Shown: positions 8,337-15,716 of the stretch, piece by piece
How the letters are laid out: each line of letters opens with the position of its first letter
How positions within the stretch are numbered: the stretch's first letter is position 1
DNA from: Acidobacteriota bacterium
GTDB taxonomy: Bacteria > Acidobacteriota > Blastocatellia > RBC074
Assembly (NCBI GenBank): GCA_016196035.1
Contig: JACPYM010000076.1
Coordinates: forward strand, 1-59,234
Length of the DNA stretch: 59,234 bases
Direction: 5' to 3'
Program-made: the position numbers and the translations under genes
Notes under the pieces: model-generated
Told to the model about the DNA's origin: nothing
What the model saw: only the letters and a program-made list of their open reading frames with translations
The model's database searches: none

Positions 8337-9107
8337 TTACTTCGACACGGTTTTGATTGTGATGCGGGCGACAGTCGCAATCTTATACCTAAAGGCGCGC
8401 CATGCCGCTTGTTTCATCTGCCCGGCGTCGCCCGTGGTAAGAAAAACATCCGCGCCACTCTTTGGCAATTGCCAGCCTTTAAGTTGATCCACCAACGCGC
8501 TGGCGGGATTGATAAAGACGGTCTTTGCCGACACGAATTCGCGCAACACCGGCGTGATCGCGGGGTAATGCGTGCAAGCCAGCAACAGGTGCGAGCAGTT
8601 TCTGATGGGAGCCAGGATACGGCGGCATTGCGCGCGCAATTCAGCCGAAGACACAGCGCCGCTTTCGATCAGCCCGGACAGTGGTTGTGCGATGCGTTGA
8701 GTCACTTCAATGCCCTGCGCTGCAAATGCTGTTCGATACACGCCGGACAACACCGTGCGCCTGCCACCGATCAACGCGAGCCGTGCGGGTTGCAGTCGCG
8801 CAGTCATTCGCACTGCGCTTTCGATCACGCCCTCTATCGGGAAATCGGTGACCTTCAGCAAAGGAAGCGCCGTGCTCGCCGCGTTGCAACCGATGACCAG
8901 ATGCGTCGCGCCTTGCGTTTGTAAAAACGCGCTGACGCTGTGCAACCGTTCGACTAATGCGCCGCGCGACATCTTGCCGTAAGGCGTGACGCCCGTGTCG
9001 GACAGGTACAGCACTGGGACGTCGCCGAGTCGCGCTTTGATCTGTTGCAGCACGCTAATGCCGCCGATGCCCCAATCCAGCATCGCCAAACGAGGTTTGT
9101 TCTGCAT
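8337..9107 (-). CDS. murI: Aspartate/glutamate racemase family protein (MurI-like)
   Basis: Glutamate racemase supplies D-glutamate for peptidoglycan. This 256-residue protein keeps both catalytic cysteines, C74 in IGCNAAST and C178 in ACTHYP, plus the PYG motif (SDTGVTPYGK). The N-terminal D-S-G-x-G-G block of MurI reads D11-W12-G-I-G-G: the acid is kept but the following Ser is Trp. That residue lines the active site in known enzymes, so substrate preference or activity may differ. The length is normal. It is transcribed with the methyltransferase gene upstream (7-bp gap). Family certain; the exact reaction is less so. Confidence 0.8.
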   Translation of the reverse strand: MQNKPRLAMLDWGIGGISVLQQIKARLGDVPVLYLSDTGVTPYGKMSRGALVERLHSVSAFLQTQGATHLVIGCNAASTALPLLKVTDFPIEGVIESAVRMTARLQPARLALIGGRRTVLSGVYRTAFAAQGIEVTQRIAQPLSGLIESGAVSSAELRAQCRRILAPIRNCSHLLLACTHYPAITPVLREFVSAKTVFINPASALVDQLKGWQLPKSGADVFLTTGDAGQMKQAAWRAFRYKIATVARITIKTVSK

Positions 9108-9114
9108 AGCGCTT

Positions 9115-10431
9115 TTACGGGTAAGTCAGTTTGACCTCGACGCCGCGTTCGACCGGGCCGGAGTCAAAGGCCACGATGCGCGCATTCCAACCGAGGTTGA
9201 GAATTTCCATGCGCTGCCCGGGAAAGCGGCTTTCGAGATACCATTTCATCTCGTGCTCGGAACGAATCGGGTTGTATTCCAGCATCTTCTTCCACGCCGG
9301 GTGCGTCACCAGTTTTTGCAGGTTCGCCTTGAAAGTCGCATTGCTTTGCTGCCTGAGCAGCGTGCGCAATTTGTCAGCCAGGAAGTGCGGATATTCCGAC
9401 AGCTTCACCGGCACCGTCACCATATCCACGATCAGCAATTTGCCGCCGGGTTTCACCACCCGTTTGATTTCACCCAGCAGCGGGTCCCAATCCAGATAAC
9501 GAAACGACATCAACGAAATCACCACATCGAAACTGTCGTCCGCAAACGGCAAGGCTGGCGTGTTGATCGTGGTAAAGCTGAGATTCTTGTGCGCTGCCGC
9601 TCTGGCCTGGGCGCGCTCGATCATCCCGGCGGATTCGTCTACGCCCACGCCCTGCTTGATCCTGCCGCTCAACGCCGACAATAGCGCGCCGTTACCGCAA
9701 CCGATGTCGAGCACTGTCAAATCATTCGCGGACAGCAAATGCCGATTCAGCCATTGCCATTCATCCTGCCGCACCTTGATGTCCGCAAACGCCGCGTCAT
9801 ACAACACCGCCACTTGGTTATAAGTCGGATCGCCCGCAGGCGCTTCAGGCGCAAAGCGCTTCAACTCTTCGGCGGGCATCAACCCGGCGAACTTCAGCAC
9901 CGAGGCGCCCAAGCCATGCGACTTGCGGCCCTTGCAGCCAATCGTATACAGCGTGTCTGTCGTCGTGTCCGCCCCGGCGTATTGATAGCGCGTCTTGCTG
10001 CGCGAAAAGGTTGTGTACCAAAAGAACCCGAACGCCTGCACCTTGAACGTGCGCGCAAAAAACGGCGCAAACCAACGCGCCGAACGGCAGCAATGAAAAT
10101 GCGCCGCAGCCCCATCGGCAAAGGGGAGTTCCAGCGTCTCCCATTCGTATGGGCTGAACTGTTCGGGAAACGCCACCGTCCCAAACATCGGCCCGTACAT
10201 CCCGGAATGCCCAACGAAATGAAACTCCCGGATGCACTGACCCGCCGCTTTGATTTCAGCAAACTGCCGCAACACGTCGCGCTTGCTTTCGACCGCACAA
10301 CAGCGGATTTCGCCCGCGAAGCCACTCATCCGTTTCTCGCGCGCCAGTGTCCTGGCGACGATAGGAAACTGCTGCCCGCCTTTGCGGTACAGCGTGGTGT
10401 AGATAATGAGGATGACTTGATTCGTTGACAT
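9115..10431 (-). CDS. Class I SAM methyltransferase with N-terminal H/C-dyad (caspase/CHAT-like?) domain
   Basis: A 438-residue two-domain protein. Residues ~205-400 form a class I methyltransferase: motif I VLDIGCGNGALL, the acidic end of strand 2 (GVGVDESAGM), motif IV DDSFDVVISL, and post-motif VVKPGGKLLIVD. The first ~200 residues are not part of the methyltransferase. They contain an isolated His in EFHFVGHSG (H75) and, about 40 residues later, Cys in HFHCCRSA (C114/C115) followed by a helix and a hydrophobic strand. This order and spacing match caspase/CHAT-type cysteine peptidases, though the usual H-G is H-S here. Start ATG 10431 has no strong ribosome-binding site. The methyltransferase call is firm; the N-terminal call is a hypothesis. 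Confidence 0.75.
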   Translation of the reverse strand: MSTNQVILIIYTTLYRKGGQQFPIVARTLAREKRMSGFAGEIRCCAVESKRDVLRQFAEIKAAGQCIREFHFVGHSGMYGPMFGTVAFPEQFSPYEWETLELPFADGAAAHFHCCRSARWFAPFFARTFKVQAFGFFWYTTFSRSKTRYQYAGADTTTDTLYTIGCKGRKSHGLGASVLKFAGLMPAEELKRFAPEAPAGDPTYNQVAVLYDAAFADIKVRQDEWQWLNRHLLSANDLTVLDIGCGNGALLSALSGRIKQGVGVDESAGMIERAQARAAAHKNLSFTTINTPALPFADDSFDVVISLMSFRYLDWDPLLGEIKRVVKPGGKLLIVDMVTVPVKLSEYPHFLADKLRTLLRQQSNATFKANLQKLVTHPAWKKMLEYNPIRSEHEMKWYLESRFPGQRMEILNLGWNARIVAFDSGPVERGVEVKLTYP

Positions 10432-10493: not shown

Positions 10494-10589
10494 GGGGCAG
10501 TACCGCGCGCGTGAACAAGCGGCGCGTCAAGCTTGCCCCCTTAGCTGAATTGCCAAAGCACCGCTTGCTCACGCGCGCGGTACTGCCCC
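10494..10589. repeat. Palindromic element, family A copy 1
   Basis: Two ~32-nt arms (10494-10525 and 10558-10589) are inverted copies with two mismatches. The arm begins GGGGCAGTACCGCGCGCGTG and ends AAGCGG. A second element with a closely similar arm occurs at 24268-24340. It occupies the gap between the methyltransferase start and the uvrA stop, so it may also act as a transcription barrier after uvrA. Confidence 0.8.
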
Positions 10590-10627: not shown

Positions 10628-13546
10628 CTAAGCTCGCAAATGTCCTTTGAGAAAGCGCCCTGTGTGCGACCGCTTGCACGCCGCCACCTCTTCCGGCGTC
10701 CCCGTCACCACCACTGCGCCGCCCGCGTGTCCGCCTTCCGGCCCCAGATCAATTACGTGGTCAGCGGTCTTGATCACATCCAGGTGATGTTCAATCAACA
10801 GCACCGAATGCCCGGCGTTGACCAACCGATTCAACGATTCGAGCAGCTTTTCAATATCAGCCAAGTGCAAGCCCGTCGTCGGTTCATCCAGAATATACAG
10901 CGTATGTTTCGCGCGTTGCAGTTTGCTCAGTTCCGTCGCGATTTTGATGCGTTGGGCCTCGCCGCCTGAGAGCGTCGTCGCTGATTGCCCCAGCGTGAGA
11001 TAGCCCAAGCCTAAATCATTCAGCACTTCGACTTTTTTGCCGATGGTGGGTTCGCTGGCAAAGAAAGTCACGCCTTCTTCGACGGACATATTCAGCACGT
11101 CGTCAATCGTCTTGCCGCGCAGCGTGACTTCGAGCGTCTCGGCGTTGAAGCGCGCGCCTTTGCACGCGCCGCACGTGACTTCGACATCGGGCATGAAATA
11201 AAGCTGCGTGGTGATGGAGCCTTCGCCCTGGCACTCTTCGCAACGCCCGCCTTTGACGTTGAAGCTAAACCGCCCCGGCTTGTATTCACGTTCGACGGCG
11301 AGCGGCGCGCGCGTGAACAGGTCACGAATCGTGTCGTAAAAACCGATGTACGTCGCCGGGTTCGAGCGGCTGCTGCGGCCAATCGGCGATTGGTCAATGT
11401 TGACGACTTTGTGGACGTGTTCGAGGCCTTCTACGCCAGCGTGCGCGCCGGGCAACGTGCGCGTGTCTTCGAGGTTTTTCCAAAGGGCTTTGAACAGGAT
11501 TTCGTTGATGAGCGTGCTCTTGCCCGAACCCGACGCGCCCGTGACGGCGATGAGTTGGCCGAGCGGGATGGTTACGTCAATGCTTTTCAGATTGTTTTCG
11601 CGCGCGCCGCGAATCGTGAGCGTCTTACCGTTGCCTTTGCGCCGCTCGGTGGGTGTCTCAATGCTACGACGCCCCGAAAGAAATTGCCCTGTCGGCGAAG
11701 CCTTGCAGGCGAGCACATCTTTGAGCGTGCCTTGCGCGACGACTTCGCCGCCGTGAATGCCCGCGCCGATGCCCATCTCGATGACGTGATCGGCGGCGCG
11801 AATGGTGTCTTCGTCGTGTTCGACGACGATGACCGTGTTGCCGATGTCGCGCAGCCGTTCGAGCGTGGCGATCATCTTCACGTTGTCTTTCGGATGCAGC
11901 CCGATGCTCGGTTCATCCAGCACATAAAGCATCCCCATCAGCCCCGAACCGATTTGCGTAGACAAGCGAATGCGCTGCGATTCGCCACCCGACAGCGTGC
12001 CCGAACGCCGGTTGAAGTTCAGATAATCCAGCCCGATGCCCAGCAGCAATTCGACGCGCCCGCGAATTTCATTGAGCACTTGACGGCCGGCGTCCGCGCC
12101 GCGTCCGGCGGGTTTGAGCGTGCCGAGGAAGGCGTGCAATTCGTCGAAATTCATCTGGCCGAATTCGTACAGGCTCTTGTCCGCGATGGTGAACAGCAGC
12201 CGCGTGGCGCGAAGGCGCGCGCCGTTGCAGTCGGGGCAGGTGTGTTCGACCATCACTTTGTCGAGCCAGGCCTCCATGCCAGAACTCGCTTCGCCGCGCT
12301 GGCGGTAACGGCGGTAATGACGTTCGATGCGACGTGCGATGCCGTGAAAGCCTATCTCCCGGCCTTCCCAATCGGCGCGTTTGTCTTTCTCTTTCGCATC
12401 GGGCGGCGTCATTACTTTGAACTTCGTCTCGACGCCGTAAAGGATCGCGTTGTGCGCCTTGTCCGGCAACGCCGCCCACGGCGTATCAAGCGAAAACTTC
12501 AACGCCTGTGACAAGCTGTAGATCAATCGTCCGTCCCAGGTGTCCGGCTTGTAATTGAACGCTTCGCGCACAAAGCAGCCGCCGCGAATCGAACGGCGCG
12601 GATCAGGAATCAGCAATTCCGGGTGCGTCAGTTTGTAAACCCCCAGCCCGCCGCACGTCCGGCACGCGCTTTCGGGGTTATTGAACATGAAATAGTCCGG
12701 CTGGATGTCGCCGTAAACGAAATGATGTTTGGCGCTGGTCGTCGCGCGATAAAACTTTTCGGCTTCGGCCTTGCTTGCGCCTTTCAGGATATGAACCTGC
12801 ATCAGCCCATCGCCTACCAGCAACGTAGCCGCGATGCCCGCCTTGAGGGCTTTTTCGTGTTTGCGGTTGACGACGAAACGATCCACCACGGCCTCCATCT
12901 CTTTGACCGCCGCTTCGTCAAGTTCGATTTGTTCGGAGATATCGAGGGGCTGGCCATCCACGATCAACCGGCGGCAGCCTTTCTTGCGCAACTCAGTGAA
13001 GACGAAATCCAGTTCTTCGCCATAAACCTTAAACACCGGCGCGCGCAATTCGATCTCGGCGCCTGCGGGCAAGGAAAGAATGGCTTCGAGAATCTGGTTG
13101 GCCGAACGGCTCGGCGTCGGCTCGCCCGTGCGTGGGCAATGCGGTTCGGCAATCGTGGCAAAGAGCAAATTCAAATAGCTCGCAATATCGGTCATCGTAC
13201 CGACGGTTGAACGCGGATTGTTGGCGAGCGTTTTCTGTTCAATCGAAATGACGGGCGAGAGGCCGAAGATGAAATCTACGTCAGGCTTGGAAACTTGGGC
13301 GATGAACCGTTTGGCGAAGCTCGACAGCGATTCCATATAGCGCCGCTGCCCTTCGGCATAAATCGTATCGAAAGCCAACGAGGACTTACCAGAGCCGCTT
13401 AAGCCGGTCACGACGATCAACTGATCACGCGGGATTTCGAGCGTGATGTTCTTGAGGTTGTGGACGCGCGCGCCTTGTATAGCAATGGTGGTGCGGGCGG
13501 TGCCACGCGGGGTGCTGTTGCTTGAGTTGGTTTGTTGCTTTTTCAT
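10628..13546 (-). CDS. uvrA: UvrA-family excinuclease ATPase
   Basis: The DNA-damage-sensing ATPase of nucleotide excision repair, 972 residues (normal ~940-970). It has two ABC modules. The first has Walker [10 protein letters not shown] near residue 50 and signature [12 protein letters not shown]. The second has [12 protein letters not shown] and [12 protein letters not shown] with [13 protein letters not shown]. The zinc-finger cysteines are present ([24 protein letters not shown] with CGACKGARF). The segment around [19 protein letters not shown] departs from the common SAYARQFLGQM form, so this may be a paralogue rather than the housekeeping UvrA; no uvrB is nearby. Start ATG 13546 overlaps the ycaQ-like stop by four bases (ATGA), indicating translational coupling; ATG 13552 is an alternative. 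Confidence 0.92.
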
Positions 13547-14733
13547 TGCCATTCCACTTGTGACGCGCCGATCAGGTGCGCCAGTCGCGCCAATGCTGCG
13601 TCCAATTTCTTCCGGCGTGCTTTGGTTACTTTGAGCTGCGGTTCCCAAAACACCTGACGCACAGCCAGGGTGTCGTGTTCACGCTGAAATTTGGAATCAA
13701 TACGCCCAACCAATTGCGCGCCTTCGAGCAGCGGCAACACGTAATAACCATATTGACGTTTCGGTGCGGGCACAAAAGCTTCAAAGCGGTAATCAAAGCC
13801 GAACAACCTTGTCACACGGGCGCGATCACGCATGACAGGGTCAAACGGCGAGAGCAAGCGCATGCGGTCGGGGGCGTCGGGTAAGTTGCGCAACCGCGCC
13901 TGCCAGTCGTGCAGCGCAAAGGCGGCGCGCGGTGGTTCGCCATGGCCGGATTCGATCAGCACCGCCACGATCTCGCCAGATTTTGCCGCTTGGGTGCACC
14001 ATTGCCGTGCTTGGACAAGCGGGATGGCGTGCCAGAACTCGGCGATTTCTTTGGGTGTGGCGATTACCAATCGCTCGAACGACGTGCGGCAGGCCCATTC
14101 GAGATGCTCGGCTTCGGTTGGCGCGCCGAGCATGGTAACGGCGGGCAAGACGCGCTCGGTCAGGTCATAAACCTTCTGAAACTTGTCCCGCCGCGTCACC
14201 AGCAATTCGCCAGTAAACCAGAGATATTCGAGCGCCGTTTTTTGCGGTTTCCAGTCCCACCAGCCAGCGGCTTTTCCTTGGCGGTCATGCTCGAAATCCT
14301 GCGAACGCAACGGCCCTTCGCGCGCAATACGCTCGCGCACGTGCGCCAAGGTTCGTTCCGGTTGCTCACCCATGCGCGGCCCCCACCAGCGGTTTCGCAG
14401 CCGCGTTTCATAACGGGCAAAGCGCGGCTTCCAATGCACAAACCACGCCGTTGGAATCGCCGCTGCATCGTGCGTCCAATGCTCAAACAGATGCCGGTCT
14501 TGTTCGAGCAAGCGTGTGAAGTGTTCGTGCCGGTAGCCGTCCAACCGGCTGCCGAGCGTCAGATGATGCGCGCGCTCAATATAGTTAATCGAATCGAGTT
14601 GCACGAAGCCTATTTGCTCGATCAGTTTGGCGAGCGTCGTGTGCGTCGCTTTGCGTGCGGGATCGGCGAGCAAGCCCTGCGCGCCGAGAAACAAACGGCG
14701 CGCGGCTTCGGTGGAGATTAGTGGAGGCTTCAT
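13543..14733 (-). CDS. YcaQ/AlkZ-like winged-helix DNA glycosylase
   Basis: A 396-residue protein of the HTH_42 (YcaQ/AlkX, AlkZ) family. These enzymes remove bulky or crosslinked N7-alkylpurines and can unhook interstrand crosslinks. The catalytic Q-x-D motif is in [16 protein letters not shown]. The C-terminal part has the expected [20 protein letters not shown] and YYVLPLL...LVGRIDSK blocks. The ATG at 14733 begins 2 bp after the ankyrin stop, and the gene's own stop overlaps the uvrA start, so the pair is coupled. This couples base-excision unhooking with excision repair. It is the strongest functional hint in the operon. Confidence 0.88.
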
Positions 14734-14735
14734 CT

Positions 14736-15716
14736 TTAACTCGCTCCGTGTTGTTGCAGCAAAGCTGCAATCTCGGCGTGCCCCTTCTTCCGCGCCCAAG
14801 CCAGCGGCATCGCCCACGTCGCACCCGCTTTGTTCACATCCGCGCCACGTTCCAACAAAAGGGTGACCATCTCTTGCTGGCCCCAGTGTGCGGCATAGCC
14901 CAGTGGTGTGGATCGGTTCTCCTCATCAATCGGATTAATGTCCGCGCCGTAGTCGAGCAGTAAGCCGGCCTTGCGAACTTCTCCCTTAAACGCCAAATCG
15001 TGCAGCAACGTGACGTGCCGCCAGTTCATGTGATTAGGATTCATGCCGTGTTCCAGCAGAAAGACCGCACTCTCGTATTTCTTGAAATAGTACTCCTTCG
15101 CCCATTTGGAGATGTCGGGAACGCGCGCGCCGTAGCGCATCAACAATTCAAGCATTTCGAAGGCTTCAGCTTTTGCGGGCATTGCCAATATGCCTTCGCC
15201 CCAAAACGTATCTTCATCCAGCGCGAGTTCAGGGCGATCCTTCAATAGGGCTTCGACCTCGGTGAGCCGGTTATGATCCACCGCTGCTTGGAAGCGCCGC
15301 ACCGTTTCATCTTTGCCGCGCTCAATTTTCCCGATGTCTTCCCACGTGCGTAACAGTGTGGAGTCAGCGATACTCTGTTCCAGAAATGCCAAAATCTCGG
15401 CGTATTCTCGGTCAGCAGCAACTGTCACGAGCAGTTCCAGGAAAGGATGGGTTTTATAGTTCGGATCAATCCCGGCTTGCGCGATTAGGTAGCGGACAAG
15501 TTCAAGATGTCCTTCGCGTACCGCCAAGTGCAATGGTGAGGTGTAGTCATATTGGCAAGTGAGCAGCTCCGGGCAATGCTGCGCCAATTCTTTCACCCGC
15601 GCCAAATCGCCGTTCTGGCTGGCAACCAGCATATTCCAGACATCGGTGGTGGTCGAGACGATGCCGTTGTGAAGCTCCAGCGGGCGCGTTTTCTTCAGTT
15701 CATTGGGTTGAATCAT
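14736..15716 (-). CDS. Ankyrin-repeat protein
   Basis: A 326-residue protein-interaction scaffold with no signal peptide. Ankyrin repeats are clear near the N-terminus (SPLHLAVREGHLELVRYLIA) and at the C-terminus (STPLGYAAHWGQQEMVTLLL, then AMPLAWARKKGHAEIAALL). More degenerate repeats lie between (TLLHDLAFKGEVRKAGLLLD). A strong AAGGAGG lies upstream of the ATG at 15716. It sits 15 bp after the LRR gene and 2 bp before the glycosylase, so the four genes form one transcript. It might tether or regulate the repair enzymes, which is inference only. Confidence 0.85.
   Translation of the reverse strand: MIQPNELKKTRPLELHNGIVSTTTDVWNMLVASQNGDLARVKELAQHCPELLTCQYDYTSPLHLAVREGHLELVRYLIAQAGIDPNYKTHPFLELLVTVAADREYAEILAFLEQSIADSTLLRTWEDIGKIERGKDETVRRFQAAVDHNRLTEVEALLKDRPELALDEDTFWGEGILAMPAKAEAFEMLELLMRYGARVPDISKWAKEYYFKKYESAVFLLEHGMNPNHMNWRHVTLLHDLAFKGEVRKAGLLLDYGADINPIDEENRSTPLGYAAHWGQQEMVTLLLERGADVNKAGATWAMPLAWARKKGHAEIAALLQQHGAS

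Follow-up and report, generated by a model that had tools for sequence, protein, structure and literature searches.

The window analysed here is a stretch of 59,234 nucleotides from an Acidobacteriota bacterium (contig JACPYM010000076.1), and the genes of interest lie on its reverse strand. A gene at positions 9,115 to 10,431, with an ATG start, encodes a protein of 438 amino acids in which two parts are joined: (i) a caspase-fold (clan CD-like) domain, residues 1-200 (9,832 to 10,431), recognised by an AlphaFold2 model and its structural matches in the PDB; and (ii) a class I SAM methyltransferase that a conserved stretch extends at the C-terminus, residues 200-438 (9,118 to 9,834), recognised by Pfam, a structural match and the SAM motif. 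On the same strand, 7 nt downstream, a partner gene (8,337 to 9,107) encodes an Asp/Glu racemase of 256 amino acids, a paralogue of MurI. The fusion of a protease-like domain with a methyltransferase is real, and it forms one uninterrupted frame in 34 of 34 full-length sequences. The initial annotation had described a methyltransferase preceded by 200 unrelated residues that hold a VGHSG motif (H75) and a CCRS motif (C114/C115). This description was borne out: the Methyltransf_11 match is confined to residues 241-334, neither Pfam nor NCBIfam nor PADLOC has a match to residues 1-200 at E<=5, and both motifs are found at the positions claimed.

One scan of genome contigs yielded 32 loci. Among them, L033 encodes a methyltransferase only (31% over residues 240-343) and was excluded from all family counts, while L025 and L032 are partial copies at contig edges that were left out of the alignment counts and kept in the neighbour count. 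After adding loci from genome searches, 31 distinct full-length sequences were available, window included, and three copies added later (L142-L144) brought the total to 34. The Acidobacteriota homologues (Blastocatellia, Pyrinomonadaceae and others, one of them labelled only as 'bacterium') are 66-84% identical to the window protein. Locus L028, from a Chthoniobacteraceae genome, which we take to belong to Verrucomicrobiota, is 48% identical, and L142-L144, from the same order as L028, are 48-54% identical.

The distribution of the fusion gene is patchy, as it occurs in 22 of 98 genomes and in 14 of 396 genomes of the window's phylum (its own genome included in both cases), in 2 of 288 genomes of the phylum of L028, and in 5 of 213 genomes of the order of L028 (the last two counts include the genome of L028 and the truncated copy L066). 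The hosts are known here only as metagenome-assembled genomes (MAGs). The copy at L066 (1,447 to 1,953, reverse strand), also from the phylum of L028 and not counted as a family member, is an ORF of 168 amino acids that keeps the His motif, stops before the Cys and is without the methyltransferase.

Fold and conserved residues of the N-terminal domain

Residues 1-200 were modelled by AlphaFold2 from a 29-row alignment (mean pLDDT 89.5, pTM 0.89); the structure alignments (A1 and A2) contain the window sequence and 28 of the 30 other full-length sequences, with L023 and L041 omitted. The top Foldseek match in the PDB was SAVED-CHAT (E 9.2e-4), the sole match under E 0.001, followed by Tce1, CED-3, caspases and MALT1. 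Query TM-scores were modest (0.35-0.48 across ranks 1-11), and from rank 12 (E 0.11) the matches included unrelated folds such as lumazine synthase, PAICS and type II dehydroquinase. VIA-align 2, which is a rescoring of Foldseek's own match list, parts caspase-fold from unrelated structures better. Here, the highest Z corresponded to Tce1 (12.0; 149 residues, 3.2 A), together with SAVED-CHAT (11.9; 156 residues, 3.7 A), caspase-7 (7wzs_B, 10.8), a GPI transamidase chain (10.4) and legumain (10.3). The 50 matches listed, with Z of 9.6-12.0, include caspases, MALT1, legumain/AEP, GPI transamidase, SAVED-CHAT, Tce1 and one mTORC1 chain (6bcu_W), presumably Raptor, which bears a caspase-like domain; because rows within 1 Z are tied, the nearest caspase-fold subfamily is not nameable. 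In general terms, the predicted structure is the caspase-like alpha/beta fold of clan CD and not a non-peptidase fold, and this assignment is well supported. An alpha/beta-hydrolase identity, already disfavoured in the initial annotation, was rejected because the structural matches listed are caspase-fold.

At the sequence level, no match to Peptidase_C14 (PF00656) or CHAT (PF12770) was obtained for residues 1-200 at E<=5, and the hhalign comparisons with 26 C14 domains (probability 6.8%, with H75 offset by three residues from the histidine of C14) and with 28 CHAT domains (0.8%) were not significant. In the absence of a significant profile-profile link, homology therefore rests on structure and motif. 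Thus, the resemblance to caspase/CHAT peptidases proposed at the outset holds for the predicted fold and the motif, and does not extend to detectable C14 or CHAT sequence homology: the N-terminal domain is a case of structural resemblance plus motif, not of C14 or CHAT membership. A search of the N-terminal profile against the sequences of solved structures returned two matches (E 1.5 and 2.8), which were taken as chance. In a viral structure library there were no matches to the domain at E<=0.001; the best one was an uncharacterised Solivirus protein (3.6e-3), and named caspase-domain proteins appeared at E 0.03-0.35.

The domain shares with caspases, metacaspases and orthocaspases (C14, MEROPS clan CD) the order of the core strands, a His after the third strand and a Cys-Arg after the fourth, and its Z to animal caspases is 9.6-10.8. 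Some C14 domains of related genomes (e.g., L113) have FAGHG and DACR, compared with FVGHSG and CCR in the fusion, whereas others have different residues around the Cys. Unlike C14 proteins, the domain of the fusion is compact (200 amino acids), fused to a methyltransferase and without a C14 profile match. Similarly, CHAT and SAVED-CHAT proteins provide the best Foldseek E-value, but the fusion protein has no CHAT profile match, TPR or SAVED part. In the case of Tce1, a putative T6SS cysteine protease effector, a conserved His-Cys pair has been reported (PMC13323088); nevertheless, Tce1 is secreted, is only 11% identical to the domain, and has no methyltransferase reported in the parts of that source considered here.

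In the caspase layout, the catalytic His follows the third core strand and the catalytic Cys the fourth. In the model, the putative catalytic histidine H75 (codon at 10,207 to 10,209, reverse strand) comes immediately after core strand 66-73, the third one, and the putative catalytic cysteine C115 (codon at 10,087 to 10,089, reverse strand) immediately after core strand 104-113, the fourth one, with the invariant R116 next to it. The His-then-Cys order in strand context that had been read initially as caspase/CHAT-like thus agrees with the predicted structure, and both residues are invariant in 34 of 34 sequences. The conservation expected for C114 did not hold to the same extent, since it is kept in 30 of 34 and drifts to Ala or Ser across homologues; among the first 31 distinct full-length sequences (window included), H75, C115 and C114 were found in 31, 31 and 30, respectively. 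In L028, 85 of the 200 residues are identical to those of the window domain, and the dyad is kept while C114 is replaced by Ala. Also invariant in all 34 are R16, Y11-T12-T13, Y139-T140-T141 and H172.

Invariance alone is modest evidence, given that the first 31 sequences agree fully at 60 of the 200 N-terminal columns. Furthermore, the alignment is shallow (Neff 1.9) and, therefore, the invariance partly reflects recent ancestry. What would seem more telling is which residues vary: of the six cysteines in the N-terminal domain of the window, C115 alone is invariant, with variation at C44, C45, C66, C114 and C166, and of its five histidines just H75 and H172 are invariant. In any case, the fusion gene probably carries a working His-Cys dyad.

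The methyltransferase half and the racemase partner

According to Pfam and NCBIfam, a class I SAM methyltransferase spans approximately residues 235-345, with Methyltransf_11 (PF08241) at residues 241-334 (1.1e-21; 77.7 bits, cut-off 21.2). In the full-length model (pLDDT 84.0, pTM 0.82), residues ~200-430 match class I enzymes (the best one being 3dh0, Z 17.3 over 179 residues), and the SAM motif (D242, G244, G246, D265) is found in 34 of 34 sequences, so that both the Rossmann fold and the SAM motifs of this class are present. UbiE, BioC, ArsM and the other NCBIfam methyltransferase models all scored below their cut-offs among the 25 of 62 matches listed, where the best score was 70.6 bits versus a cut-off of 460. 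About 32 of the 50 structural matches listed are small-molecule enzymes, such as DhpI, phosphoethanolamine methyltransferases, CouO, NovO and CysG (our own tally, made largely from titles); the remaining ones are proteins of unknown function and tRNA or protein N-terminal methylases (CmoM, METTL6, NTMT1). The last 99 residues of the protein were found in exactly those 22 of 98 genomes that carry the N-terminal domain. Elsewhere in the genome of the window, the methyltransferase part finds distant relatives only (at most 63 bits).

The partner protein belongs to the Asp/Glu/hydantoin racemase superfamily, as indicated by its PF01177 match (53.6 bits, cut-off 31) and by the paired cysteines C74 and C178, present in 32 of 32 operon racemases. 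Together with D11, T179 and H180, equally invariant in the 32, these cysteines make up the two-cysteine, cofactor-free set of residues shared with MurI. Unlike MurI, the operon racemase scores under the TIGR00067 glutamate racemase cut-off (107.7 vs 146.65 bits) and, when the two racemases of the window's genome are compared, has DWG and CNAAS where MurI has DSG and CNTAS. Residues W12 and A76 are invariant in the 32 operon racemases, at positions where the glutamate racemase of the genome has Ser and Thr; in L143 and L144, position 76 was seen by eye to be Ser. In MurI, this Ser and this Thr contact the substrate. Since W12 and A76 replace them, the operon racemase, judged from these residues, is probably active but probably does not act on glutamate in the usual way. 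The consulted parts of one source (PMC8142540) give no MurI pocket residues. All 22 genomes have a second racemase match, one of them weak (G043, 38 bits). Because the second copy in the window's genome passes the TIGR00067 cut-off (237.4 bits), the operon racemase is neither the only nor a typical MurI. That second copy adjoins a gene that we read as RNase PH-like.

The linkage of the two genes is well supported. In all 31 loci from L002 to L032, a racemase gene comes after the fusion gene with the same orientation, and likewise in L142-L144, which complete the linkage set; L041 lies outside this set, but the 22 genomes include the one it comes from (G060). Examining gene neighbourhoods, as had been suggested, thus revealed a constant gene of which the initial annotation had made no mention. 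The gap between both genes is <=20 nt in 19 of the 31 loci, two of which overlap by 1 nt (start codons were chosen by script), and the widest gaps measure 704 and 721 nt. These two (L011, 7,315 to 8,018; L025, 1,155 to 1,875) have short ORFs inside. By ORF clustering (window and L002-L031), the racemase was recovered in 30 of 31 sources, and the missing one, L017, was recovered by tblastn. Moreover, strong racemase orthologues (49-100% identity, at least 241 bits; next match, 96 bits) occur in 22 of 98 genomes, which are exactly the 22 with the fusion gene, and none carries just one of the two. Pairwise distances of fusion and racemase correlate (r 0.85 over 30 gene pairs; 0.69 without L028), as expected for joint inheritance, although shared species history alone would also yield this correlation.

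Genomic context

No third constant gene was found: the next commonest neighbours reach at most 18 of 31 loci, some of which are short. A larger operon including DUF58-like, SpoIIM-like and other neighbours (identified from our reading of their sequences) was rejected on the same count, and neither a substrate nor a precursor peptide was found. In the window, a UvrA-like ATPase (1006 amino acids) lies beside an AlkZ-like DNA glycosylase at 10,628 to 14,817, upstream of the fusion gene and on the same strand; neither of them clusters with genes from other loci. The gap that separates the end of the UvrA-like gene from the fusion start contains an inverted repeat (10,494 to 10,589) with 32-nt arms, 94% complementary and 32 nt apart. 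The 21-nt core of its arm has no other match in the window with <=3 mismatches allowed, and an exact 18-nt part of it was found, among the collected loci, only in the four that cover the site.

Defence-related matches were sought with PADLOC in the ten neighbours of the window, and the neighbours at the other loci were compared by clustering. The fusion protein matches mad2 (1.4e-18) and RT_UG35, both through the methyltransferase part only; the UvrA-like protein matches mad3 (3.3e-88, 295 bits) and also mad8; an ankyrin protein matches PDC-M72A and Ankyrin; and a response regulator-like protein matches SduA. No match was obtained for the racemase. The mad3 score probably reflects general UvrA/ABC similarity, because the gene is not common to the other loci and has ordinary UvrA domains. 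Regarding mobile elements, tblastn gave no match at E<=0.01 in 72,556 plasmid records or in 50,697 phage records, and none of the 18 pattern stretches in viral contigs encodes a relative; in view of these absences, phage or plasmid cargo was rejected. The genome of the window (G000, 139 contigs) has 33 CHAT and 7 C14 matches at E<=1e-10, and its relatives G013 and G017 have 59 and 60 CHAT matches, respectively.

Proposed function and alternatives

Computation showed that the two domains are fused, that the N-terminal model matches the caspase fold, that the dyad is invariant, that the SAM motif is present, and that the racemase is linked to the fusion gene and co-occurs with it; from these observations we infer a pathway with its catalytic activities, location, shared substrate, order of steps and product. 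The best explanation, which we favour tentatively and with rather less than full conviction, is a two-gene pathway in which a bifunctional cleave-and-methylate enzyme and a racemase would yield a methylated, D-configured metabolite. The fusion protein would be a bifunctional enzyme, probably cytosolic, whose caspase-fold domain may cut or transfer a peptide or amide bond by means of the H75-C115 dyad; the class I methyltransferase would then methylate the same substrate or the released product; and the racemase, with its redesigned pocket, would invert the alpha-carbon of an amino acid or derivative. The end product would be a methylated, D-configured amino-acid or peptide metabolite. Seen as a module of two enzymes with three activities (cutting, methylation and racemisation) directed at an amino-acid or peptide substrate, the proposal is plausible to that same limited degree. 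Linkage does not prove a shared substrate, and the presence of tRNA and protein methylases among the methyltransferase matches was counted against this explanation.

Coupling of a protease to a methyltransferase had been regarded as new. There is, in fact, a precedent in PilD, a single polypeptide with protease and SAM-dependent methyltransferase activities that cuts and then methylates one substrate, according to the parts considered of PMC3584216; nevertheless, PilD is an integral-membrane aspartic protease of unrelated fold, so the parallel is an analogy only. As for the racemase, OpaE, as described in the consulted parts of PMC12661438, illustrates that enzymes of the Asp/Glu-racemase family can act on peptide derivatives, but it is fungal and belongs to the allantoin-hydantoin racemase subfamily. 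A protein-repair system (Asp-specific protease, isoaspartate methyltransferase and Asp racemase) was considered and rejected, as the PCMT profile reached only E 0.1.

Among the alternatives, it is unlikely, if the least so, that the dyad performs a non-hydrolytic reaction (transamidation, ligation or acyl transfer) that loads or cyclises a substrate which is then methylated. The structural matches do include one GPI transamidase chain (8imy_K, Z 10.4) and one asparaginyl endopeptidase converted into a ligase (6l4y_A, Z 9.6), but true peptidases match equally, given that rows within 1 Z are tied. Somewhat less probable still is that the caspase-like domain is regulatory, that is, that on sensing a signal it would cleave itself or a partner so as to release or switch the methyltransferase. 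Clan CD domains are often activation proteases and, judging from the confidence of the full-length model (pTM 0.82), the two domains may pack together. On the other hand, these two domains are predicted to take up the whole protein, so that a sensor domain would not fit; the short linker around residues 195-205 has the invariant P195 and Y204; and the C-terminus of the methyltransferase was not found outside the 22 genomes with the caspase-like domain. The idea of protease-like sensing put forward in the initial annotation found no support, the constant genetic partner being a racemase.

A degenerate caspase fold, acting without catalysis as a scaffold that binds the substrate for the methyltransferase, appears just as improbable as the regulatory domain. 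Pseudo-orthocaspases that lack the dyad are known, as stated in the consulted parts of PMC6426788, but such variants lose the dyad, whereas here it is kept in 34 of 34 sequences while the adjacent C114 drifts to Ala or Ser. Finally, it is very unlikely that the protein acts as an effector in immunity or cell death, in the manner of caspase/CHAT conflict systems, or as a component of methylation-associated defence. In its favour can be cited the abundance of CHAT and the C14 matches in the host genome, together with mad2 (in the methyltransferase part) and mad3 and mad8 (in the adjacent UvrA-like protein). However, the UvrA-like gene bears UvrA domains and clusters with none of the other loci, the gene that constantly accompanies the fusion encodes a racemase with no PADLOC match, and no relative appears in plasmid or phage records or in viral contigs; in consequence, a role in defence or cell death has little support.

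To return to the favoured cleave-methylate-racemise pathway, its fold and both of its enzyme classes are known, and it is their combination that was not found described in the open-licence literature. In the titles and abstract openings of that literature, no description of a caspase/CHAT-methyltransferase fusion, or of its pairing with a racemase, was recognised. Likewise, the word 'methyltransferase' does not appear in the consulted main text of a survey of 112 architectures of prokaryotic metacaspases (PMC3501461), and no caspase/CHAT-methyltransferase fusion was found in the consulted parts of PMC8195603. It is conceivable, though doubtful, that all of this amounts to an undescribed cut-methylate-racemise module, with a new clan-CD-like peptidase family in Acidobacteriota and Verrucomicrobiota, that makes a methylated D-amino-acid peptide or metabolite.

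Bacterial caspase-fold enzymes are usually discussed in relation to cell death, defence or toxin delivery. Here, the caspase fold appears as the constant half of an enzyme that looks metabolic and is linked to a racemase. Should both halves prove active, this fold would extend to a biosynthetic or processing role, and the pair of genes would point to an unknown D-amino-acid compound in bacteria known here only as MAGs.
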